DNA of 60,327 bases from Treponemataceae bacterium. Lineage in GTDB: Bacteria > Spirochaetota > Spirochaetia > Treponematales > Treponemataceae. The stretch is from positions 1-60,327 of the forward strand of contig JAILBN010000090.1 in the NCBI GenBank assembly GCA_024680915.1. The letters run 5' to 3'. Shown piece by piece: positions 4,530 to 32,184 of the stretch. The stretch's first letter is position 1, and each line of letters begins with the position of its first letter. Below the pieces are notes generated by a model, which was not told where the DNA came from, searched no databases, and saw nothing but the letters and a program-made list of their open reading frames with translations. The position numbers were made by a program, and so were the translations under genes.

Positions 4530-5425
4530 GCGCTTCCCCTGTCCACGAAAAAATAGAGAAAGAGAGAAAGCATCGTAAGAATCTTGGAATCACATACGCC
4601 TGGCCTATGGGTATATGGTTCACTGTTTTTTTCGTAGCTCCTCTTGTCATCATAACTTTATACAGCTTTCTTAAAAAAGGTCTGTATGGTGGCGTAGTAT
4701 GGGAATTCTCCCTGTCTGCCTATGCTCAGATGTTCAGTAAGTCATACGGAATCGTTTTCCTCAGGACCTTGTGGATATCCATCATCTCATCCCTTATTAC
4801 CATACTTATAGCACTGCCCTGCGGCTATGCCATCGCCAGGAGCAAGAAGCAGACCCTGCTTCTTATGCTCATCATAATTCCCTTCTGGACCAATTCCCTT
4901 ATCAGGATTTTCGCCTGTATGTCCATATTGGGAAACGATGGCCTTATAAACACTATGCTTATAAAGATAGGCCTCATCGATGATTATCTGCCTCTGCTAT
5001 ATAACCAGCGTGCGGTAATCCTCCTTTCCGTGTATATGTATCTTCCTTATGCCATACTGCCCATTTTCACCTCCATCGACCGTTTTGACTTCTCTCTTCT
5101 TGAAGCTTCCCGTGACCTTGGGGCCACAAAGTTCCAGTCAATGGTAAAGATACTCCTGCCCAGCATAAAAAGCGGTGTCGTGACGGCTCTCATATTTACT
5201 TTTATCCCGATTTTCGGGGCTTACACAGTTCCTCTTCTCGTGGGCGGAAAAGATTCCTACATGCTTGGAAACGTAATCGTGGATCAGGTCAACAAGACCC
5301 GCAACTGGCCTCTTGCCGCCGCCTTCTCCATGGTCATAACCCTCGTAAGTACAGCTGGTGTTCTTTGGATGATGAGCACATCAAAGAAAGATGCTGCGTT
5401 GAAAACAAGCAGCAAGAGGAAATAG
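4526..5425 (+). CDS. potB: spermidine/putrescine ABC transporter permease PotB
   Basis: 299 residues with six predicted membrane helices, the first at about 24-48. The EAA loop that docks on PotA is EASRDLGATKFQSMVKILLP (from about residue 193). Its order behind potA and before potC/potD is the standard operon order of polyamine importers. The start ATG overlaps the potA stop. The C-terminus is lysine-rich and cytoplasmic. Confidence 0.92.
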   Translation: MSASPVHEKIEKERKHRKNLGITYAWPMGIWFTVFFVAPLVIITLYSFLKKGLYGGVVWEFSLSAYAQMFSKSYGIVFLRTLWISIISSLITILIALPCGYAIARSKKQTLLLMLIIIPFWTNSLIRIFACMSILGNDGLINTMLIKIGLIDDYLPLLYNQRAVILLSVYMYLPYAILPIFTSIDRFDFSLLEASRDLGATKFQSMVKILLPSIKSGVVTALIFTFIPIFGAYTVPLLVGGKDSYMLGNVIVDQVNKTRNWPLAAAFSMVITLVSTAGVLWMMSTSKKDAALKTSSKRK

Positions 5426-5429
5426 CATA

Positions 5430-6308
5430 ATGAACAAAACACCATACCGCTGGCTTCTTAACAGGCTGCACAAAAAAACTCCCTTATCTGAGCCTGCAAA
5501 ACATGCAAAAAGGGCATTCCAGAAAAAGAAGCACCATTTCTCCTTATCTGTGACAGTGCTGGCAATAACGATTCTGTTTTTGTTCCTTCCTCTTTTCTAT
5601 ATAGTCTTCTTTTCCTTCAATGAGGGGAAGGGGAGCGAATTCACTGAATTCTCCTTGGTCTGGTACAAAAAGCTTTTCTGCGATTCCGATGATTTGTGGG
5701 AGGCTTTCTTGAACAGCATCATAGTGGCCCTGCTTTCTTCTGCGGTAGCCACCGTTCTTGGAACTTTGGCGGCCATAGGAATAAACTGGTATAAGTTCAA
5801 GGGGCGGATGTATATACAGACTATAAGCTTCCTGCCTATGGTCCTCCCCGAGGTGATAGTGGGTGTCTCCACCCTTATCTTCTTTTCCGGGGTACATGTA
5901 CCGCTGGGGCTTTTCACTATTTTTGCCGCCCACACGACATTCTGTCTTCCCTTTGTGTTCCTGCTGGTCTCTGCCCGTATTGAGGAGTTCGATTTCTCCA
6001 TAATCGAGGCGGCCCATGACCTGGGAGCCACTGACAGGCAGACCATGCTTAAGGTTATAATTCCTGCCATCCTTCCAGGTGTCCTCTCTGGTTTCATGAT
6101 GTCCGTCACCATGTCTCTTGAGGACTTCGTCATAACCTTCTTCGTATCTGGTCCAGGTTCTACGACCCTGCCCCTCTATGTCTATTCGATGATACGTTTC
6201 GGTGTGTCCCCTGTAATAAACGCATTGTCCTTTGTGGTGATTCTGGCCACTGTTCTTATAACTTTCTCTTTGCGGCGATTTCTTAAGGTTATTGCCGCAA
6301 GTAATTAA
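5430..6308 (+). CDS. potC: spermidine/putrescine ABC transporter permease PotC
   Basis: 292 residues. A basic cytoplasmic N-terminus of about 40 residues, longer than in the enterobacterial protein, is followed by six helices and the EAA loop EAAHDLGATDRQTMLKVIIP (from about 193). The start is four bases after the potB stop, so the genes are coupled. Together with PotB it forms the membrane channel. Confidence 0.92.
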   Translation: MNKTPYRWLLNRLHKKTPLSEPAKHAKRAFQKKKHHFSLSVTVLAITILFLFLPLFYIVFFSFNEGKGSEFTEFSLVWYKKLFCDSDDLWEAFLNSIIVALLSSAVATVLGTLAAIGINWYKFKGRMYIQTISFLPMVLPEVIVGVSTLIFFSGVHVPLGLFTIFAAHTTFCLPFVFLLVSARIEEFDFSIIEAAHDLGATDRQTMLKVIIPAILPGVLSGFMMSVTMSLEDFVITFFVSGPGSTTLPLYVYSMIRFGVSPVINALSFVVILATVLITFSLRRFLKVIAASN

Positions 6309-6329
6309 ATTCCAATGGAGGATATAAAC

Positions 6330-7370
6330 GTGAAAAACAAATTTTTCCTGGCTTCAATGATGCTTCTGGCAGTGCTGTTTATTTTTGCAGGCTGTAACAA
6401 ATCAGAGAAAAAAGAACTATATCTTTTTAACTGGACATATTATACACCGGACTCTGTCATAGAGCAGTTCAAAAATGAATTTGGTATAGATGTGCATGTG
6501 GACAATTTCGCTTCCAACGAGGAGATGTTCGCCAAGCTGAAGGCTGGAGCCTCCGGCTACGATGTAGTCTTCCCATCCCAGGATTACGTCTCCATCATGA
6601 TCGCCGAGGGAATGCTTAAAGAACTTGATCATACGAAGCTTCCTAATCTCAATAATATAAATCCCTTTGTACTCAGCAAAGCCACATACGATCCAGAGAT
6701 GAAATATTCCGTGCCTTATTACATGGGTATCGCAGGAATCGCCGTCAATAAGACTAAAGTCTCTGAATACGGAAAAAGCTGGAATATTTTTGGAAGGGAA
6801 GATCTCAAGAACAGAATGTGCATGATGGATGACCTGCGAGAGGTCATAGGAGATGCCCTTGTTTATCTTGGATATTCCGTTAACTCGACGAACGATGCCG
6901 AGCTTACCAAGGCAAAGAACCTTATTATCAATGATTGGAAGCCTAACCTTGTCACCTTCGATGCCGAGGGCTTCGGAAAAGCTTTTGCCCGCGGAGATTT
7001 CTGGGTAGTCCAGGGATATGAGGAAGTCGTTTTCAGCGAGATTGAGGAAGCCAAATGGGATACGGTAGATTTCTTCATTCCGGATGAGGGAGGTCCTATG
7101 TACCTTGACTCAATGTGCGTGCTTAAGGACAGCAAGAATTACGAGGCAGCCTTTCAGTTCATAAACTTCATCCACAGACCTGAGGTTTATGCTCAGTTCC
7201 TTGATTATTTCCGTTTCCCCAACAGCGTGAACAAAGAGGCTGACAAATACATGCAGAAAGAGCCTGCCTATAATGCCACAGATATGGAGAGGGGAGAGCT
7301 GAAATACGATCTGGGAGAAGATCTCGCAAAGTATAATGCTATCTGGCAGGATATCCGATTTACAGAGTAG
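6330..7370 (+). CDS. potD: polyamine-binding lipoprotein PotD
   Basis: 346 residues. I start it at the GTG at 6330 because GGAGG lies eight bases upstream. That gives a proper lipoprotein signal (MKNKFFLASMMLLAVLFIFAGC, shown here as n-region KNK and lipobox FAGC). The ATG at 6315 would add acidic residues before the signal and would lie over the ribosome binding site. The mature protein begins with the PotD signature LYLFNWTYYTPDSVIEQF and has ASGYDVVFPSQDYV and YYMGIAGIAVNKTKV. It is the periplasmic (in a spirochaete, inner-membrane anchored) receptor for spermidine/putrescine. Last gene of potABCD. Confidence 0.93.
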   Translation: MKNKFFLASMMLLAVLFIFAGCNKSEKKELYLFNWTYYTPDSVIEQFKNEFGIDVHVDNFASNEEMFAKLKAGASGYDVVFPSQDYVSIMIAEGMLKELDHTKLPNLNNINPFVLSKATYDPEMKYSVPYYMGIAGIAVNKTKVSEYGKSWNIFGREDLKNRMCMMDDLREVIGDALVYLGYSVNSTNDAELTKAKNLIINDWKPNLVTFDAEGFGKAFARGDFWVVQGYEEVVFSEIEEAKWDTVDFFIPDEGGPMYLDSMCVLKDSKNYEAAFQFINFIHRPEVYAQFLDYFRFPNSVNKEADKYMQKEPAYNATDMERGELKYDLGEDLAKYNAIWQDIRFTE

Positions 7371-7435
7371 AGTGTTTTCTGTGTTATCAAGGAGTGAACC
7401 TGCTGACCTGAAATATTCTTGAGAGGAGGAGTTAT

Positions 7436-8677
7436 ATGAAGACAGACAATAAAAAAATCATTTTTTTGATGCTGGTGTTGCTTCTTATGACTTCTTCCCT
7501 GCTTTTTTCGGAGCAGTTCCGCTTCAAATATAACAAGGGTGAGGAATACCGCATCCTTTCCACGGTTCACGAATCCGTATACTACAACGGAGTCTTCGAC
7601 CATTTCTCAGAGATAGTGAACCGTATCTCCGTTTCTGTTACCGATGAGAAAAACGGTATAGGAAGCCATGAGGCCGTCTTCATGACGACGGAGAATGCCA
7701 CTGAGGAGAAGCCTGATGACGGGACGACGATTTCCCATTCCGTGACAGGTACCTTTCAGTGGGGAGAAGAGTATCTTAGCGTTTTCGACCGTGACCAATA
7801 CGGCCTTTACACGATAGACGACATATATTTCATGCCCATCGTGCGTGATGTTCCTGTCTTTCCTGACTACGACCTGGAGCCTGGCGACTCCTGGGAGCAT
7901 GACGGTGAAGAGGTCCACGACATGCGCGTCAATTATGGTGTTCAAGAGCCCTTCCGTATTCCCTTCACCACGGAATATACCTATGAGGGTACGGTGGAAA
8001 AGGATGGCCTTACCCTTCATGTAATAACTGCCGATTATTCTCTTTTTTATGATGTCCCGGTGGCCCAGGATGCAAAGGGAACGGCTCCAGTCAAGGCTAT
8101 GGGCTACTCCTACCAGACAATCTACTGGGATAATGAGGCGGGTGCCATTCACTCCTATGAGGAGGATTTCCGCATAGTAATCGATACGAAAAACGGTGAC
8201 AAGATTGAGAATCGTGGTACTGCCAGCGCGGAATATGCGGAGAAGCCCCACTTCTCGAAGGAAGAGGCCTTGCAGGATATTCAGAAGCAGATAGAAGACC
8301 TTGAGGATACTGAAGTCACCATTGATGAGAAGGGAATTACTCTGAGACTTGAGAATATCCGTTTCCGGGCTGACTCTGCGGTGCTCCTTGAAAGCGAGAA
8401 AGAAAAGCTGGAGAAAATTTCCGAGATACTTAAAGCTTATTCTGGTAACGACCTGCTTATAAGCGGCTATACGGCCCGCGCTGGTACGGAGGAGTCATGT
8501 ATAGTGCTTTCCCAGGAAAGGGCTTCAGCCGTCGCAGATTTCCTTGTAGAGCTGGGGGTGAAGGATCCCCGCTACATATTCACCCAGGGCTTCGGCTCTG
8601 CATTCCCCATAGCGGACAATTCCACGGCAGAGGGCATGGCCCGGAACCGCCGCGTAGAAATCACCATAATGAACTAA
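7436..8677 (+). CDS. exported protein with C-terminal OmpA peptidoglycan-binding domain
   Basis: 413 residues. An N-terminal signal peptide (about 1-25, ending LLFSEQ) is followed by about 260 residues of beta-rich sequence with no recognised family. The last about 110 residues are an OmpA domain: FRADSAVLLESEKEKL, ISGYTARAGTEESCIVLSQERA, and the terminal MARNRRVEITI that forms part of the diaminopimelate/ornithine-binding site. Such proteins tie the outer membrane or periplasm to the cell wall. A good Shine-Dalgarno (GAGGAGG) precedes the ATG. It is 65 bp behind potD but with no shared logic, so it probably has its own expression. Confidence 0.85.
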   Translation: MKTDNKKIIFLMLVLLLMTSSLLFSEQFRFKYNKGEEYRILSTVHESVYYNGVFDHFSEIVNRISVSVTDEKNGIGSHEAVFMTTENATEEKPDDGTTISHSVTGTFQWGEEYLSVFDRDQYGLYTIDDIYFMPIVRDVPVFPDYDLEPGDSWEHDGEEVHDMRVNYGVQEPFRIPFTTEYTYEGTVEKDGLTLHVITADYSLFYDVPVAQDAKGTAPVKAMGYSYQTIYWDNEAGAIHSYEEDFRIVIDTKNGDKIENRGTASAEYAEKPHFSKEEALQDIQKQIEDLEDTEVTIDEKGITLRLENIRFRADSAVLLESEKEKLEKISEILKAYSGNDLLISGYTARAGTEESCIVLSQERASAVADFLVELGVKDPRYIFTQGFGSAFPIADNSTAEGMARNRRVEITIMN

Positions 8678-21292: not shown

Positions 21293-22549
21293 TCATGATT
21301 GGCGTGCCAGAGCTTTCTGGTCAACGATACGCTTCATGTCCACGATATTGTTCACGACGATGCTGGTGTCATAAATCTCGATACGACGTTTCTCAGCGAA
21401 CTTGTTCAGTTCATCGCGGACTGTCTCCACAGGAAGCCCCGCCCAGTGGGAAAGGTCCTGTACCGTTATGTTGAACTTACGGGATCTGTCCGCATGGTTC
21501 GGCGACGGATTCATCTCGTCAAACATCAGGAATACATCGGCAAGCCTTGCCTGTATATCAGGAATCACGAGGATCTTGAAGCGCCGCTTCTGGTCGTAGA
21601 TACGTTTGCAGAAGAGCTTGAGCAGGATAAGGGCAATCTGCGGGTTTCCTGTTATAAGAATCTCGAAATTCTCCTTGTTGAACTCCAGGACCTCTACAGT
21701 ATCTATGGCTACGCAGGTGGCGGACCTGGGGGTATTCTCAAGTATAGCCATCTCACCGAAGAATTCTGACGGCATAAGGATATCAAGGTTTTTCTTCGCG
21801 CCGTTCACGCATTTTACCAGCTGGACCTGTCCGGACTGTATCAGGTAGAAGCAGTCCCCCGGCTCGTACTCTGAGATTATGACATCACCGGGATTGAAGG
21901 TCTTTGCGAAACGAGAGAAAGCGGGAAGCGAGAACTGCTTCATAGCTCCTTGTGAGCCCATTCCTGTGATTATGGAACCTGACGGTTCTATGGACGTGCC
22001 TCTGGCAGCCTGCATATCCGCACGTTTTTTTGCATCGGTATATAATTTCGCCAGACTGTTTTTGTTGGGGGCGGTGGGGAATCTTGAAAGAGCTTTCAGA
22101 CATACGTCACAACAGGATTTGTACTGCTCATCGTTATAGAAGCTTTGTGCGACAAGCTGCATTCCTGTATATTGGTTTACACCGTCATTGCTGTTAAGGA
22201 TCGATTCAATTTTCTTGTGGATTGAGCGAAGCTGGTTGGAGAAAACTCTCAGCATCTTCATGATTATCTGTTTGTTGCTGCTGAATAAGTTCTCGAACTC
22301 GGAAACAGTCATAGAAATAGTTATGGAATCTGTCACGACAGTAGCGGTCTCTTCCCGGGGAAAGTGTCCGAAGGCCGATTTTACCCCGAAGAACTCACCC
22401 TCCCGTATATATTCTGTTACGGGAGCTCCTGTCTCTATGTCAGTACTCGTAAGAAATATTACGCCCTTCTGAAGGATGAATATACGCTCATCTTTATCGC
22501 CAGAAAAGTAGATTATTGATCCTTTTGTGTATTGTACTGCTCTTGGCAT
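21293..22549 (-). CDS. regulator with two cyclic-nucleotide-binding domains (Crp-like)
   Basis: 418 residues. First cNMP domain about 1-115 (KGSIIYFSGDKDERIFILQKG, EGEFFGVKSAF). A linker of about 100 residues follows. The second domain is about 215-340 (FNPGDVIISEYEPGDCFYLIQSG, PSEFFGEMAILENTPRSATCVAI), with the fuller phosphate-binding cassette FGEMAILxxxPRSAT. The C-terminus has a helix-turn-helix-like VQDLSHWAGLPVETVRDELNKF, so DNA binding is likely. The ligand (cAMP, c-di-nucleotide or none) cannot be decided. GAGGAA precedes the ATG. Divergent from the PHP gene. Confidence 0.82.
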   Translation of the reverse strand: MPRAVQYTKGSIIYFSGDKDERIFILQKGVIFLTSTDIETGAPVTEYIREGEFFGVKSAFGHFPREETATVVTDSITISMTVSEFENLFSSNKQIIMKMLRVFSNQLRSIHKKIESILNSNDGVNQYTGMQLVAQSFYNDEQYKSCCDVCLKALSRFPTAPNKNSLAKLYTDAKKRADMQAARGTSIEPSGSIITGMGSQGAMKQFSLPAFSRFAKTFNPGDVIISEYEPGDCFYLIQSGQVQLVKCVNGAKKNLDILMPSEFFGEMAILENTPRSATCVAIDTVEVLEFNKENFEILITGNPQIALILLKLFCKRIYDQKRRFKILVIPDIQARLADVFLMFDEMNPSPNHADRSRKFNITVQDLSHWAGLPVETVRDELNKFAEKRRIEIYDTSIVVNNIVDMKRIVDQKALARQS

Positions 22550-26359: not shown

Positions 26360-27637
26360 ATGAAAGCGGAAACATTATGTCTTCATGCAGGATATTCTCC
26401 TAAAAATGGAGAGCCCAGAGTCGTGCCCATAGTTCAGAGTACGACATACAAATTCGATTCGACTGAGCATGTCGCAGCTCTTTTCGATAAGCCTACGGAA
26501 TATATGTATTCCCGTTTCGCCAATCCTACCTGCGATGCGGTGGAGAAGAAAATCGCTGCCCTGGAGGGTGGGGTGGGAGCCATGCTTACCTCAAGCGGGC
26601 AGGCTGCATCCCTCTGCTCCATATTGAACCTATGTTCAGCAGGTGACAGCTTTATATCAAGTACCTGTATCTACGGCGGTACAGTCAACCTTTTCAGCTT
26701 TACCCTCAAAAAGCTGGGCATTGAGTGTATCTGGGTAAAGGCCGATGCCAGCGAAGAGGAGATTCTTGCCGCCTTCAAGCCTAACACCAAGTGTGTCTTC
26801 GGCGAGACTATAGCCAATCCGGCTCTCACTGTGTTCGATATTGAGAAATGGGCTGAAGCCGCCCACAAGAAGAATGTTCCCCTTATCGTGGATAATACCT
26901 TCGCTACTCCTATTCTATGCCGTCCTTTTGAGTGGGGCTGTGACATCGTGATCCACTCCACCACTAAATATATGGACGGTCATGCTGTCCAGGGCGGTGG
27001 TGTTATCGTTGACAGCGGTAAGTTCGACTGGGTCAAGGCAAATAAGGCTACAGGCTTCTTTGCCGATATGGTGGAGCCTGATGCAAGCTATCATGGCCTC
27101 AATTATACGAAGGAATTCGGTAATGCCGCTTATATCATAAAAGCCCGCACCCAGCTTATGAGGGATTTCGGCTGCTATCCTGCGGCCCAGAGTGCTTTTT
27201 ACCTTAATATGGGACTTGAGACCCTGCCTCTCCGCATGGCCCGTTATTGCGAGAATGCTCTTAAGGTGGCTGAGTTCTTCAAGAAATCTGACAAAATTGC
27301 TTCTGTAACCTATCCTGGACTTCCAGGGGATAAAAGCTATGATCTGGCTCAGAAATACCTGCCGGATGGTGCCAGCGGTGTGGTTTCCATAAGCATAAAA
27401 GGTGGCCGTGATGCCGCGGTTCGTTTCATGGATGCCCTAAAGCTTGCCAGCGATGAAGTGCATGTCGCAGACATAAGGACCTGCGTCCTTCATCCTGCCA
27501 GCGCTACCCACCGTCAGCTTACGGACGAGCAGCTTGTTGCTGCGGGAATTGACGGCGGAATGGTTCGTTTCAGCTGCGGCCTTGAGAATATAGATGACAT
27601 AATTGAGGATATAAAGCTCGGTCTTGCCGCTATATAA
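26360..27637 (+). CDS. metY: O-acetylhomoserine (thiol)-lyase / aminocarboxypropyltransferase
   Basis: 425 residues, the length of MetY rather than of shorter cystathionine synthases. The PLP lysine is in HSTTKYMDGHAVQGGGVIVD; other marks are VPIVQSTTYKFDSTEHVAALF, YMYSRFANPTCDAVEKKIAALEGG, and ADIRTCVLHPASATHRQL near the end. It makes homocysteine from O-acetylhomoserine and sulphide. No SAM riboswitch or S-box is visible in the 23-bp gap from the ComM gene, so it may be read from upstream. A terminator follows. Confidence 0.9.
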   Translation: MKAETLCLHAGYSPKNGEPRVVPIVQSTTYKFDSTEHVAALFDKPTEYMYSRFANPTCDAVEKKIAALEGGVGAMLTSSGQAASLCSILNLCSAGDSFISSTCIYGGTVNLFSFTLKKLGIECIWVKADASEEEILAAFKPNTKCVFGETIANPALTVFDIEKWAEAAHKKNVPLIVDNTFATPILCRPFEWGCDIVIHSTTKYMDGHAVQGGGVIVDSGKFDWVKANKATGFFADMVEPDASYHGLNYTKEFGNAAYIIKARTQLMRDFGCYPAAQSAFYLNMGLETLPLRMARYCENALKVAEFFKKSDKIASVTYPGLPGDKSYDLAQKYLPDGASGVVSISIKGGRDAAVRFMDALKLASDEVHVADIRTCVLHPASATHRQLTDEQLVAAGIDGGMVRFSCGLENIDDIIEDIKLGLAAI

Positions 27638-27737: not shown

Positions 27738-27756
27738 GCTAAAATATTAGAGTATG
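27738..27756 (+). promoter_or_regulatory. extended -10 close to the start of the surface operon
   Basis: TGCTAAAAT (27737-27745) and eight bases to the ATG at 27754; TTGTTT at 27718-27723 is a possible -35 with 16 bp spacing. No Shine-Dalgarno. The leader would be zero to two bases. Confidence 0.5.
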
Positions 27757-28245
27757 TACGGGAAAAAGTTTTTTATAATAACATTGGTAATGTTGATTTC
27801 TCTTTCCGGGCTTTTCGCCCAAAGCCCTGATGAGCTTTCACGGATGATAGAGACTGAGGAAGCTACCGTGGGCCAGGTGGGATATTTTCTTGCTGTATAT
27901 CTTGAGCTGGTACCTGATGTAGCTAATGGAAGGGCTTCTCTTGATGCTCTTGAGACGGCAGGGTATGGGAGCTATCGTAATGCTGATGCCCCGATAACCC
28001 TTTCTCAGCTTGCCGGTTTGTGTATGAAGGTTTGGAAGATGGAGGGAGGTCTTATGTATTCTCTTTTCGGTTCAAACCACTATGCTTTCCGTGAGTTCCA
28101 GTCAAAAGGATATCTTTCCTTTTCTGATGATCCTATGGCTCATTTGTCGGGCTACAAGGCTTTGAACTTGATTTACAAATGCCTTGAGACGGCTGATGCC
28201 TCAGAACCAGTTGCAGAGACTGATTCAGAAGAAAGCGGAGAGTAA
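27754..28245 (+). CDS. secreted protein of unknown function, first gene of surface operon
   Basis: 163 residues. A clear signal peptide (MYGKKFFIITLVMLISLSGLFAQ, cleavage after LFA) is followed by a helical, weakly acidic mature part containing GYFLAVYLELVPD and a C-terminal E/S-rich tail. No family recognised. The next gene starts three bases after its stop, so it is made together with an outer-membrane-like barrel, a FecR-domain protein and a lipoprotein; a periplasmic partner role is an inference from that context. Confidence 0.7.
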   Translation: MYGKKFFIITLVMLISLSGLFAQSPDELSRMIETEEATVGQVGYFLAVYLELVPDVANGRASLDALETAGYGSYRNADAPITLSQLAGLCMKVWKMEGGLMYSLFGSNHYAFREFQSKGYLSFSDDPMAHLSGYKALNLIYKCLETADASEPVAETDSEESGE

Positions 28246-28248
28246 AAG

Positions 28249-29436
28249 ATGAAAAAAAGAGTTATAAGCATAGTAATCACTATAATCTTGATATTTGCCG
28301 CTGTCTCTCCTGTCGCTGCGTTCGATTTGGGTGGACAGCTTGATACGAGTATCAGCATGGGTGGCCGTCAGTGGTTTACTGACAATTTCGGTGGTGTTAT
28401 AGGTGCTACCGAAAGAGCTTCCGTATGGTTCCGTACACCACTTCCTTTCGGTACGCTTTCTCTTGAGGGCGGATGGAACCTCAATGTAAGTTATGGATTC
28501 GTATGGCCTCTTACTTTGTTCGATGCACAGGTTTTCAATTTCCTGAACACCCTCGACTTAAGGCTTGCTAAATACAATTTCGCTATCAATATAGGCAGCC
28601 TTGCTATGGACTTTAATGTGGGCCGTTTCCCTCTTTCTGATTCGACGGGGTTGATTTTCAATCAGAACATAGATGCCTTGTATGTCTCCCTGCCATTCAG
28701 CTTGTTCACGGTCTCAGCGGGAGCTGGCTATACCGGATTGCTTAATGCTAAGACATCGGGTGTTTATGGTATCCCTGTGGATATTCCTGCTGATTCTTTT
28801 TATGTTTTTGCCCCTGGTTATGTGGCTGTTCTTTCCCGAATCACAGCTCCTAGTCTTATAGCCGGTCAGACCTTTGATGCAGATGTCAATTTGTTCATCA
28901 ACTGTAATACTACAGAAAGCTCTGATAGCAGGACTCGTTTCTATGCTACTGTGGGAGCTCATGGTCCTATTATTCCTCTCCTGTACTACAATGCTTCCTT
29001 CTGTTTCGGCTATGCCATGGGACCAGAGCAGAAGCTTGGCGTTCTTGGAAACGCAGGCCTCAGTTTCTACCCGAATTTCCTTTCCTCGACTATTTCTTTC
29101 AATACCTTGTTCGTGACGAAAGATTTCCTGCCCTTTACGGATATACCGCTTTCTGTAGATGGTATGATAGGATGCTCCAATGTCCTGAAGCTTGCTCTTG
29201 CTTTCTCGATGAAACCTGTAGACAAGTGGCTTGCAAACACAGAGGTTTCTCTATTCTATTCTTCAGTGGATGAGGTCTCTTCTTTCGTGCTGAATGAGCT
29301 TCAGGCTAATTTGAACGTGAAATTCCAGTGGTTTAGTGATTTTTGTCTGAGTGCATCCGGTGGTGTGGTGATACCTGTGAGCGACACAAGTGTTTCATTC
29401 TTTACAGCCTCTGTCAGGGCCCAGCTTTCGTTCTGA
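28249..29436 (+). CDS. predicted outer-membrane beta-barrel protein
   Basis: 395 residues. A signal peptide ends at SPVAAF. The mature protein shows alternating polar/aromatic strands throughout (for example LEGGWNLNVSYGFVWPL, SVSAGAGYTGLL, ASFCFGYAM) and finishes in VRAQLSF, an aromatic C-terminal residue as used by the BAM machinery. No named porin family was recognised; this type is common in treponemes. It is directly coupled to the preceding gene. Confidence 0.7.
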   Translation: MKKRVISIVITIILIFAAVSPVAAFDLGGQLDTSISMGGRQWFTDNFGGVIGATERASVWFRTPLPFGTLSLEGGWNLNVSYGFVWPLTLFDAQVFNFLNTLDLRLAKYNFAINIGSLAMDFNVGRFPLSDSTGLIFNQNIDALYVSLPFSLFTVSAGAGYTGLLNAKTSGVYGIPVDIPADSFYVFAPGYVAVLSRITAPSLIAGQTFDADVNLFINCNTTESSDSRTRFYATVGAHGPIIPLLYYNASFCFGYAMGPEQKLGVLGNAGLSFYPNFLSSTISFNTLFVTKDFLPFTDIPLSVDGMIGCSNVLKLALAFSMKPVDKWLANTEVSLFYSSVDEVSSFVLNELQANLNVKFQWFSDFCLSASGGVVIPVSDTSVSFFTASVRAQLSF

Positions 29437-29481
29437 TGGAGTCGTTTTTGTCATAGCCCGTTTTGGGCGTAGGAGGCAGAT

Positions 29482-30519
29482 ATGAGTGCTTTGAAAAAAA
29501 TATTGTTTATTGCTGTATTATGCTGCGTTTTCGCGTCATTAAGTTCTATGGAGGTAAAGGTCATAGAGCTTAGTGGGAAAGTTGAGGTCCAGCAGGGTAA
29601 CAAGTGGGTTGCGGTTACCAAGGGACAGGTGCTTCCTGCTGGTTCTGTTATATCTACTGGTTTCAAGTCAGAGGCAATTCTTTCCTTCGACGAGACTGTG
29701 ATAAAGGTGAAGGCTCTTACCCGTCTTACGATAGAGCAGCTGTTCGAGAAAAATGGGGATAAAGCTTCTTCCGTCTACCTTGATACGGGTTCAATTTCTG
29801 CTGATGTAAAACCAGCCGAGAACAAGCGAGTCGGCTTTTCAGTCAAAACTCCTGCTGCGACGGCTTCTGTACGTGGAACCAGCGGAGACGTTTACTCAGA
29901 CGGAACTGTAATCGGTACGTCAGGAAGATGGTGTATCACACCTCCTGAGGCCAAGATGGTTTTTGTTCCGGTCGCACAGACAGCCGCTTCTTCTTCAGAG
30001 GAGGAAACTGCGGTTGAAGGCGGAACAGAGCCTGCTGTTGAGCCAGTCGCTGAAGTACCGGAATCTTCTGCGGTTGAAGGCGGAACGGAGCCAGTCGCTG
30101 AGCCTTCTGAAGGGGAGCCTGCTGCGGCTGAGCCAGTCGCTGAGACACAAGCACCTGTTGCTGAGCCAGCTCCTGTAAGTCAGACTCCGGCTGTAGAGCC
30201 TGTATCTGAAAGTGTTACGGTACCTGCTATGGAAGACTTCGATTTCTCTTATCCCGATATTATGGGTGCGGTTTATGTCAGCAAGGGAGAGAATGTCACC
30301 GTGTCCGGAGGTTCTTTTGTAACACCACAAGAGAATAAGATTCTTAATGCGACAGGAAGTTCTGGTGTTCAGTTGTTAAGCGAGACTGAGAAGGTCGTTC
30401 CTGCTGCACCTCAGGTTGTTTCTGAATCAAGTATATCTTCTTCTACTGAAATTGAGGTTCCTGAGAAACCGAAGTATGGAACCGTAAATATTACGGTTAC
30501 CTTGCCCTCTTTGAATTAA
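29482..30519 (+). CDS. FecR-domain exported protein with Pro/Glu repeat region
   Basis: 345 residues. After a signal peptide (about 1-22) comes a FecR domain (about 25-140: ELSGKVEVQQGNKWVAVTKG, LPAGSVISTGFKSEAILSF, VYLDTGSISADVKP, VKTPAATASVRGTSGDVY). Residues about 165-255 are a low-complexity E/P/A/V region with repeats of AVEGGTEP and EPVAE; the DNA repeats 25 bp at 30008 and 30068. A structured tail (about 255-345) follows. There is no membrane helix and no FecI-type sigma factor nearby, so this is not a classical anti-sigma protein. It may use the FecR fold as a surface or periplasmic binding module. Confidence 0.78.
   Translation: MSALKKILFIAVLCCVFASLSSMEVKVIELSGKVEVQQGNKWVAVTKGQVLPAGSVISTGFKSEAILSFDETVIKVKALTRLTIEQLFEKNGDKASSVYLDTGSISADVKPAENKRVGFSVKTPAATASVRGTSGDVYSDGTVIGTSGRWCITPPEAKMVFVPVAQTAASSSEEETAVEGGTEPAVEPVAEVPESSAVEGGTEPVAEPSEGEPAAAEPVAETQAPVAEPAPVSQTPAVEPVSESVTVPAMEDFDFSYPDIMGAVYVSKGENVTVSGGSFVTPQENKILNATGSSGVQLLSETEKVVPAAPQVVSESSISSSTEIEVPEKPKYGTVNITVTLPSLN
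30008..30092 (+). repeat. 60-bp periodic coding repeat in the FecR-domain gene
   Basis: A 25-bp segment beginning ctgcggttgaaggcggaac recurs at 30008 and 30068 with one mismatch; gagccagtcgctga recurs three times nearby. Such repeats can expand or contract by slippage. Confidence 0.7.
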
Positions 30520-30532
30520 TAAGGAGTTTGAT

Positions 30533-31054
30533 ATGAAGAAATATATAAAAGCAGCGATTCTCGTTTTTCTCGTCGCGATTGTTCTTTCTATTTCTGGTTG
30601 TGCTTTGTTCTCCTCTTTTGGAAATGTCGTCGTTGGAATAGCGAATGGGGAGGCTGGTGATAATTCTCCTTCATTCAAGATATCTGCATATCTTTATGAG
30701 ATTCAGGATGATGGAAGTGTTAAGGAGCTTGAGAAACAGACTGCCAATGATTATACTCCGGGTACACAATGCAATATAGTCTTTGAATCTCAGATCCGTA
30801 TGGGGAAACGTGTTAAGGTTTTCATAGGACTCAAGTCGAGGACTTCTGCGGAGGGTGCTTTGATCGGGGTCGGATCAGGTATAGGTAATCAGAATCCAGA
30901 CCAAGTGCAAGATGCTGTCGGGGACGCCGAAGGTCCTGCTCACAGATATTTCAAATCTGAGATGGAATTTGTCATGGCTGAAGGTGTGAATTCTCCTACT
31001 TTGCCGGCCTTCAGAGAGGTGGATCCAGAAGTCGATGATGTCTGGTGGTATTAA
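30533..31054 (+). CDS. small lipoprotein of unknown function, last gene of surface operon
   Basis: 173 residues. The signal MKKYIKAAILVFLVAIVLSI is followed by lipobox SGC (Cys about 23). The mature part is beta-rich (FKISAYLYEIQDDGSVKELE, VFIGLKSR) and ends in the unusual tail VDPEVDDVWWY. No family recognised. AAGGAG precedes the ATG. It ends three bases before the convergent AraC gene, with no visible terminator between them. Confidence 0.7.
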   Translation: MKKYIKAAILVFLVAIVLSISGCALFSSFGNVVVGIANGEAGDNSPSFKISAYLYEIQDDGSVKELEKQTANDYTPGTQCNIVFESQIRMGKRVKVFIGLKSRTSAEGALIGVGSGIGNQNPDQVQDAVGDAEGPAHRYFKSEMEFVMAEGVNSPTLPAFREVDPEVDDVWWY

Positions 31055-31057
31055 ATC

Positions 31058-32149
31058 CTAAACTTCTGAGTTTTTTGATATGGTGTTGTGCCGGTATTCC
31101 CCCGGTGTGACACCATATTTTTTTTTAAATGTACGTATAAAATGCTCCGGGTTTATATATCCCGTCTGTATTGCGATGTCACCTACCGGGATTTTCGTGT
31201 CAGAGAGCAGGGAGCAGGCATGTTCCATCCGCATATGCAGGACTATATCCGTAAAGTTTCTGCCCGTAAGCTGCTTTATCAGCTTGGAGGCATACTGGGG
31301 TGAGAAATTGAATGCCCCAGCTATTTTATCCAGGGATATGTCAAAACGGTTTTCCTGTATGTATCTGATTATATCGAAACGGAGCATGGTATTCTTGTTA
31401 ACGTCCGGGGGAAGGTCGTAGGAGGAGCTGAATTTTCTTACGAGGAAGATGAAAAGCCGGTGAAGGTCAGCCTGCAGCATGTCCTGTGAAAAAGAGTCCG
31501 TGTCCGTCGTTTCCTTGTACATTCCTAAGACAAGGCTTCGTATTGTTTCTATGTTGTCGGCTCCTCCGGTTTTCTGTCCGTCCTGAAGATCCGTATGGAA
31601 TATTATGTAATCTGCGGCCTTTGTGCTGTACATGTTTGACAGGAAGAAGGATGAAAGTATGTTCTCGGTACGAAGGAAGTTGCTGAAAATATCCTCGAAG
31701 GTCGTCTGCCTTATAAGGATATTCAGGATTATGCTGCTGTCGAACACGCTTATGCTGTGCTTGACGTTGGGGGGGATAAGACAAATGTCGCCTTTTTTCA
31801 TATGGAATTCCATCCCGTTGATGACCTGCTTTGTCTGTCCCTCCAGAACGTAGAAAAGCTCCAGGAATTCATGGCAGTGATAGAAAACGGGAGTGTAATC
31901 CGGGTGTTTCCTTATGACTATGTTTTTTCTCCGGTTGCTGCCGAAGAACCATTCTTCAGGAAGTATATCAGGTGTAGTTTCTGGGAAATCAGGAATAAAT
32001 AAAGTCTTTTCTATTAAATCGACTGGATTCAGCTTGACCAGGAATTGCTTCAGCAGGGCAGGATTCTTTTTGGCGTCAAAATATTCCTTGTATAGAGTCT
32101 CATCATAGCTTTCTTTGAGTAATTCTTCGGGAATATCACTCATCTGCAT
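31058..32149 (-). CDS. AraC family regulator, probably of the rhamnose genes
   Basis: 363 residues from the ATG at 32149. A cupin-type sensor domain (YHCHEFLELFYVLEGQTKQV, KKGDICLIPPNVKHSI) lies at about 95-150, and a C-terminal AraC double HTH (ISLDKIAGAFNFSPQYASKLIKQLTG, PVGDIAIQTGYINPEHFIRTFKKKYG) fills the last 100. A start at 32167 is possible on paper but would lie in the -10 region: TTGATA-17-TATAAT ends exactly six bases before 32149. Divergent from rhaB, it most likely activates the rhaBAD genes with rhamnose or a derivative as effector; this role is inferred from position. Confidence 0.82.
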   Translation of the reverse strand: MQMSDIPEELLKESYDETLYKEYFDAKKNPALLKQFLVKLNPVDLIEKTLFIPDFPETTPDILPEEWFFGSNRRKNIVIRKHPDYTPVFYHCHEFLELFYVLEGQTKQVINGMEFHMKKGDICLIPPNVKHSISVFDSSIILNILIRQTTFEDIFSNFLRTENILSSFFLSNMYSTKAADYIIFHTDLQDGQKTGGADNIETIRSLVLGMYKETTDTDSFSQDMLQADLHRLFIFLVRKFSSSYDLPPDVNKNTMLRFDIIRYIQENRFDISLDKIAGAFNFSPQYASKLIKQLTGRNFTDIVLHMRMEHACSLLSDTKIPVGDIAIQTGYINPEHFIRTFKKKYGVTPGEYRHNTISKNSEV

Positions 32150-32184
32150 GATAAAATTATAAAGCATAGTTTAAAATATATCAA
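32147..32184 (-). promoter_or_regulatory. complete promoter with leaderless start, AraC gene
   Basis: Minus strand: TTGATA (32184-32179), 17 bp, TATAAT (32161-32156), six bases, ATG (32149). Near-consensus and no Shine-Dalgarno. Confidence 0.72.

Follow-up and report, generated by a model that had tools for sequence, protein, structure and literature searches.

What do four secreted proteins encoded side by side in a spirochaete do together, when one of them carries a FecR domain? The question arises from an operon of a Treponemataceae bacterium on contig JAILBN010000090.1 (C88), whose 60,327 nucleotides are referred to as the window, the whole stretch of DNA that was analysed. The original prediction was that the four genes could form an outer-membrane assembly or export system in which the FecR domain is a binding module.

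Gene layout of the window operon

The operon lies between a gene for a Cys/Met-metabolism PLP enzyme (26360-27637) and a convergent gene for an AraC-type regulator (31058-32167). Its four plus-strand genes are as tightly packed as predicted, with spacers of 3, 45 and 13 bp (P1/P2, P2/P3 and P3/P4, respectively).

27754-28245, plus strand: P1, 163 aa, secreted; modelled SLH trimer fold
28249-29436, plus strand: P2, 395 aa, modelled 18-strand outer-membrane beta-barrel
29482-30519, plus strand: P3, 345 aa, FecR-domain protein, periplasmic
29647-29907, plus strand: FecR domain in P3 (residues 56-142), PF04773
29977-30237, plus strand: E/P/A/V-rich linker in P3 (residues 166-252), from composition
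30533-31054, plus strand: P4, 173 aa, small lipoprotein with lipobox ISGC

Hydropathy analysis gives each of P1-P4 a signal peptide and no second membrane helix (the highest 19-residue mean outside the N-terminal signal peptide is 1.35), which agrees with the earlier statement that P3 has no membrane helix. The lipobox ISGC likewise supports the description of P4 as a lipoprotein. No Pfam or NCBIfam family reaches its cut-off with P1, P2 or P4. The single promoter proposed for the four genes could not be confirmed: sigma-70-like sites in the window operon are no more frequent than in shuffled sequences, and the DNA directly before P1 has none.

P3 does carry the FecR domain attributed to it (PF04773, 5.3e-10). 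The E/P/A-rich repeats described previously correspond to residues 166-252, of which 89% are E, P, A, V, S or T. The length of P3 differs between orthologues, and a profile search found no sequence relatives of P3 in the PDB. The PF04773 domain is what would favor Fec-type sigma/anti-sigma control of iron uptake as the function of the operon. However, contig C88 encodes no Sigma70_r2 match or other sigma-70-family protein (the prediction had also noted that no FecI sigma factor is near), P3 lacks the cytoplasmic N-terminal domain and single membrane helix of an anti-sigma factor, its N-terminus being signal-peptide-like, and P2 is a 395-aa 18-strand barrel, not a plugged TonB receptor. With no sigma factor, no plug and no transmembrane anti-sigma, Fec-type regulation is so improbable that we rule it out. 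P3 is no anti-sigma factor of the Fec type. Its FecR domain is best regarded as a binding module of the periplasm; a binding role was the original proposal.

P1, P2 and P3 are kept together across spirochaetes

If the four proteins work together, their genes are expected to stay together in related genomes. This is the case for the trio P1-P2-P3 and not for P4. Among 80 named loci found by the FecR pattern, P2 lies upstream in 77 and the complete P1-P2-P3 arrangement is present in 72, always as separate genes (72/72). Relatives of P4 occur in 3 of 59 genomes, namely the window species and two congeners, which rules out P4 as a conserved member of the module. A search with the barrel retrieved P2 in 24 of 59 relatives, and the majority of the 28 regions inspected encode P1, P2 and P3 on one strand and in this order. 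Profile counts in 119 relatives were 79 for the P2 barrel, 79 for P1 and 89 for P3, the last figure taking in weak generic FecR matches. TP0483/TP0485 of T. pallidum might be a counterpart of this set.

In a phylum-wide sample of 247 genomes, 101 have the P1 family. We selected 20 regions by P1 alone, mostly outside the class of the window. All of them contain P3 (20/20), 18 contain P2, and 16 contain a gene for a CHASE2 cyclase, described below (the match is weak in L177, and L162 is cut by the contig end); all four genes are present in 14. Pfam confirmed the domain content of these distant regions. Their gene orders include P3-P1-P2-cyclase, P1-P3-P2-cyclase, cyclase-P1-P3-P2 and P1-P2-P3-lipoprotein-cyclase. 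Membership is thus kept while order is shuffled, and this strongly supports a functional unit. In L170, a 387-aa secreted ORF (6855-8018) occupies the place of the barrel and the P2 profile matched nothing there; this ORF is possibly a barrel that has diverged past detection.

The trio is linked to a CHASE2 adenylate cyclase

In many relatives, the gene beside the trio encodes a protein of 900-980 aa in which a CHASE2 domain (PF05226) is joined to a cyclase domain of class III (Guanylate_cyc, PF00211). In class III cyclases, a Lys/Thr pair is the adenylate signature. Both this signature and the class III catalytic residues are intact, including in the copy of the window genome, and the predicted product, judging from these residues, is cyclic AMP. 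A profile search found no sequence relatives of the CHASE2 part in the PDB.

For 68 named loci, more than 1.2 kb of upstream sequence was available. The cyclase is divergent and 43-234 bp from P1 in 51 of them (distances taken from profile edges), and 1.2-4 kb away in three more. Across the 119 genomes, 78 have both the barrel and the long CHASE2 cyclase, 38 have neither, and three are discordant (concordant, 116): G092 has the barrel only, while G032 (63% complete) and G088 have the cyclase only. Because the 119 genomes are mutually related, a Fisher value computed on these counts is not a true probability. The two genes are <10 kb apart in 48 of the 78 genomes with both. Neither G025 (a single contig of 1.1 Mb) nor G060 has the trio or any CHASE2 protein; since their congeners keep both, this suggests that the two were lost jointly. 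Overall, the linkage between the trio and the cyclase is well supported. Most relatives also encode a second type of CHASE2 protein of ~700-750 aa, distinct from the partner of the trio (e.g., G002:C16 and G074:C1:463116).

The conserved fourth gene thus encodes a CHASE2 adenylate cyclase rather than P4, which argues for signal transduction and not for the assembly or export role originally suggested, to which the neighboring genes lend no support. The trio almost always occurs with, and usually adjoins, a membrane sensor whose predicted product is cAMP, so the set probably joins the outer surface to an internal second messenger.

The cyclase does not adjoin the trio in the genus of the window and in some other lineages (e.g., T. 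putidum, L064). In the window genome it is encoded on another contig, C127 (L054):

5216-8017, divergent to P2b: CHASE2 cyclase with intact catalytic residues
3976-5109, divergent to the cyclase: P2b, a second, diverged barrel paralogue that has neither P1 nor P3 as a neighbor

Given this separation, the trio of the window genus would act in trans. Contig C127 looks as if the trio had left and the barrel copy P2b had stayed beside the cyclase. Besides four class III cyclase domains, there are nine cNMP-binding matches in the window genome, which therefore has possible cAMP effectors. A 418-aa protein encoded ~5 kb upstream of the operon (21293-22549, minus strand) has two cyclic-nucleotide-binding domains and is a possible cAMP effector.

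The region between the cyclase and P1

In 37 of 52 loci (L058-L137), the cyclase and P1 share a palindrome between them that resembles GTATAACATATGTTATAC (at most five mismatches); first-order shuffles would give 0.9. The element looks like two mirrored -10 boxes and has ATGACA ~17 bp before the box on the P1 side, which suggests a compact two-way promoter. The cyclase start codon is near the ATGACA -35 in many loci, and the cyclase transcript may perhaps be nearly leaderless. The palindrome is absent from the window operon. CRP/FNR-type palindromes are not enriched between the cyclase and P1.

Predicted structures of P2 and P1

The prediction that P2 is a beta-barrel was borne out by a high-confidence AlphaFold2 model (pLDDT 93.5) with 18 strands. 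Its closest structures in Foldseek are AlgE (E 7.8e-11), Occ/OprD and MOMP, so the model places P2 in the AlgE/OprD class of outer-membrane barrels. Neither P2 nor the 72 aligned treponeme members match PF13372 (Alginate_exp). However, in six regions from other spirochaete classes the barrel of the same cluster passes the cut-off of this family, which ties P2 to the Alginate_exp superfamily through intermediates. Although the 18-strand fold is shared with AlgE, the window operon has no adjoining polysaccharide synthesis genes.

P1 is all helical in an AlphaFold2 model built from 72 sequences (pLDDT 91). The 14 top-ranked Foldseek matches are SLH domains without exception, and comparison with the SLH structure 6bt4 gave a VIA Z of 12.0 over 115 residues (2.8 A), against 3.0 for the first unrelated fold. 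P1 is thus modelled as folding like a stand-alone SLH trimer. PF00395 (SLH) has no sequence match in P1 and matches one of the 72 family members, at E 0.044. With motif positions assigned by eye, the Arg of the TRAE-type SLH ligand motif is found in 1/72 members at position 39 and in 0/72 at position 83, Gly133 is kept in 71/72, and an RYAF motif (109-112) is conserved, reading HYAF in the P1 of the window. The Arg of the usual ligand motif thus seems to be absent from P1.

The combination of an SLH fold with an outer-membrane barrel recalls OmpM of diderm Firmicutes, which unites both parts in one chain (PMC10628300). P1 and P2 could then be an outer-membrane-to-peptidoglycan tether resembling a split OmpM, with P3 structural and the cyclase link reporting envelope stress secondarily. 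The SLH fold of P1 (Z 12) and the adjoining barrel gene fit this explanation. Nevertheless, OmpM is a single fused chain with a coiled coil (PMC10628300), whereas P1 and P2 are separate genes and the SLH fold seems to lack its usual motif. P1 also has no SLH match in Pfam, the ligand-motif Arg is missing where the alignment was read by eye, and a main tether should not be absent from a third of the relatives. We consider a tether of this kind fairly unlikely. As OmpM is stated to be absent from Gracilicutes (PMC10628300), the pairing of an SLH-fold protein with a barrel in spirochaetes is of interest in itself.

Input or output?

The gene set itself, namely the P2 barrel, the secreted FecR protein P3 and the secreted SLH-fold protein P1, kept together with the cyclase, is defined by sequence, structural models and comparative genomics. 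We propose a cAMP signaling module of spirochaetes, with P1-P2-P3 as its envelope half and the CHASE2 class III adenylate cyclase as its other half, and we judge this to be probably correct. The direction in which the signal would pass, as sensor input or as cAMP-controlled output, is a further inference.

As an input, the P2 barrel, or whatever passes through or binds to it, would report on the outside. P1 would hold or read the contact of the barrel with peptidoglycan, and P3 would relay the signal through contact with the CHASE2 ectodomain of the inner-membrane cyclase. The cyclase would then alter cAMP (up or down), to which cNMP-binding regulators would respond. With the cyclase of the window species encoded on C127, its trio would act in trans. 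There is precedent in Sinorhizobium meliloti, where the outer-membrane barrel NsrA is reported to be needed for signaling through CHASE2 cyclases (PMC7529298, PMC13001267). Several points speak against this proposal: the cyclase does not adjoin the trio in the window genus and some other lineages, P2b, which adjoins the cyclase of the window genome, could be the real partner of that cyclase, and P1 seems to lack the usual SLH ligand motif. In its strongest form, this proposal describes a Spirochaetota-wide trans-envelope sensor in which the barrel, a wall-reading P1 and the FecR relay directly gate the CHASE2 cyclase, with cAMP set by the state of the envelope or by a ligand from outside. We hold this form only tentatively, as a possibility that is more doubtful than the module itself.

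Alternatively, the trio may be the output, a cAMP-controlled transport or attachment complex of the outer membrane whose expression is set by the adjoining cyclase. P2 belongs by its model to a class of transport barrels (AlgE/OprD), and the divergent promoter region is common to the cyclase and the trio. A precedent is smc02177 of S. meliloti, a FecR gene that adjoins cyaD1: it is a target of Clr-cAMP and is dispensable for perception (PMC5498481), so an output role is conceivable for the envelope genes as well. On the other hand, the intergenic region shows no enrichment of CRP-type palindromes, a CHASE2 ectodomain needs extracytoplasmic input, and the genes remain clustered despite changes in order, as expected of interacting parts. 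On balance, an output role appears unlikely, with a chance that is still appreciable.

Comparison with known systems

The original prediction had found no described system that matches. This holds for the literature that we searched on spirochaetes, where we found no spirochaete version, SLH-fold subunit, AlgE-class barrel or shared divergent promoter, and nothing on CHASE2 in spirochetes. It does not hold for other phyla, in which similar CHASE2/FecR clusters are described (PMC9239204, PMC5192318, PMC5498481) and CHASE2 proteins are already known to pair with FecR proteins and outer-membrane barrels.

In the best reading, the set is an envelope-spanning module that would work like NsrA and the CHASE2 cyclases of rhizobia, with an SLH-fold part that is new. 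The S. meliloti system (NsrA, CyaK/CyaD1/CyaD2 and SMc02177) shares with it a barrel, CHASE2 class III cyclases and a FecR gene near a CHASE2 cyclase. By reported length and architecture, however, NsrA differs from P2: its barrel forms residues 600-1200 of a much longer protein (PMC7529298), whereas P2 has 395 aa. No SLH-fold protein is described for the S. meliloti system, and SMc02177 is a cAMP target unneeded for perception (PMC5498481).

A cluster in Campylobacterota also combines a CHASE2 adenylate cyclase with a FecR envelope protein, but has a phosphodiesterase and a TPR protein, and no separate barrel or SLH-fold gene is reported for it (PMC9239204). In the BiofilmReg operon of Burkholderia, a CHASE2 sensor adjoins a FecR-domain protein; there, CHASE2 is carried by a histidine kinase, FecR is fused to LysM and the barrel is absent (PMC5192318).

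Among spirochaetes, secreted FecR-domain proteins include leptospiral Lsa33, LipL45 and LIC11834, and the operon might by analogy encode a FecR-domain surface adhesin. Lsa33 is the best NCBIfam match of P3 (2.4e-12), and LIC11834, which has a FecR domain, is described as a binder of host matrix proteins (PMC3444417). The Lsa33 match nevertheless scores 46.7 bits against a cut-off of 420, so the likeness lies in the shared FecR domain only. Moreover, these proteins are described as adhesins outside this gene set, and an adhesin would leave the constant barrel, the SLH-fold protein and the cyclase unexplained. We regard this explanation as very unlikely.

Few of the signals of CHASE2 domains, which are widespread sensors, are known. 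A four-gene set kept phylum-wide names likely parts of a path by which information would pass from the outer membrane to an inner-membrane cyclase, and treponemes that can be cultured allow this path to be put to the test.

Lipoproteins downstream of the trio

Unrelated lipoproteins lie downstream of the trio in 24 of 73 treponeme loci, against a background of 3%, as counted with a simple lipobox rule that gives some false positives. There may thus be a lipoprotein slot after the trio, filled by no single family. One other lipoprotein family, of 250-270 aa, often starting CKKEK and unrelated to P4 by BLAST, lies 3' of P3 in L067, L073, L077, L080 and ~17 more treponeme loci.
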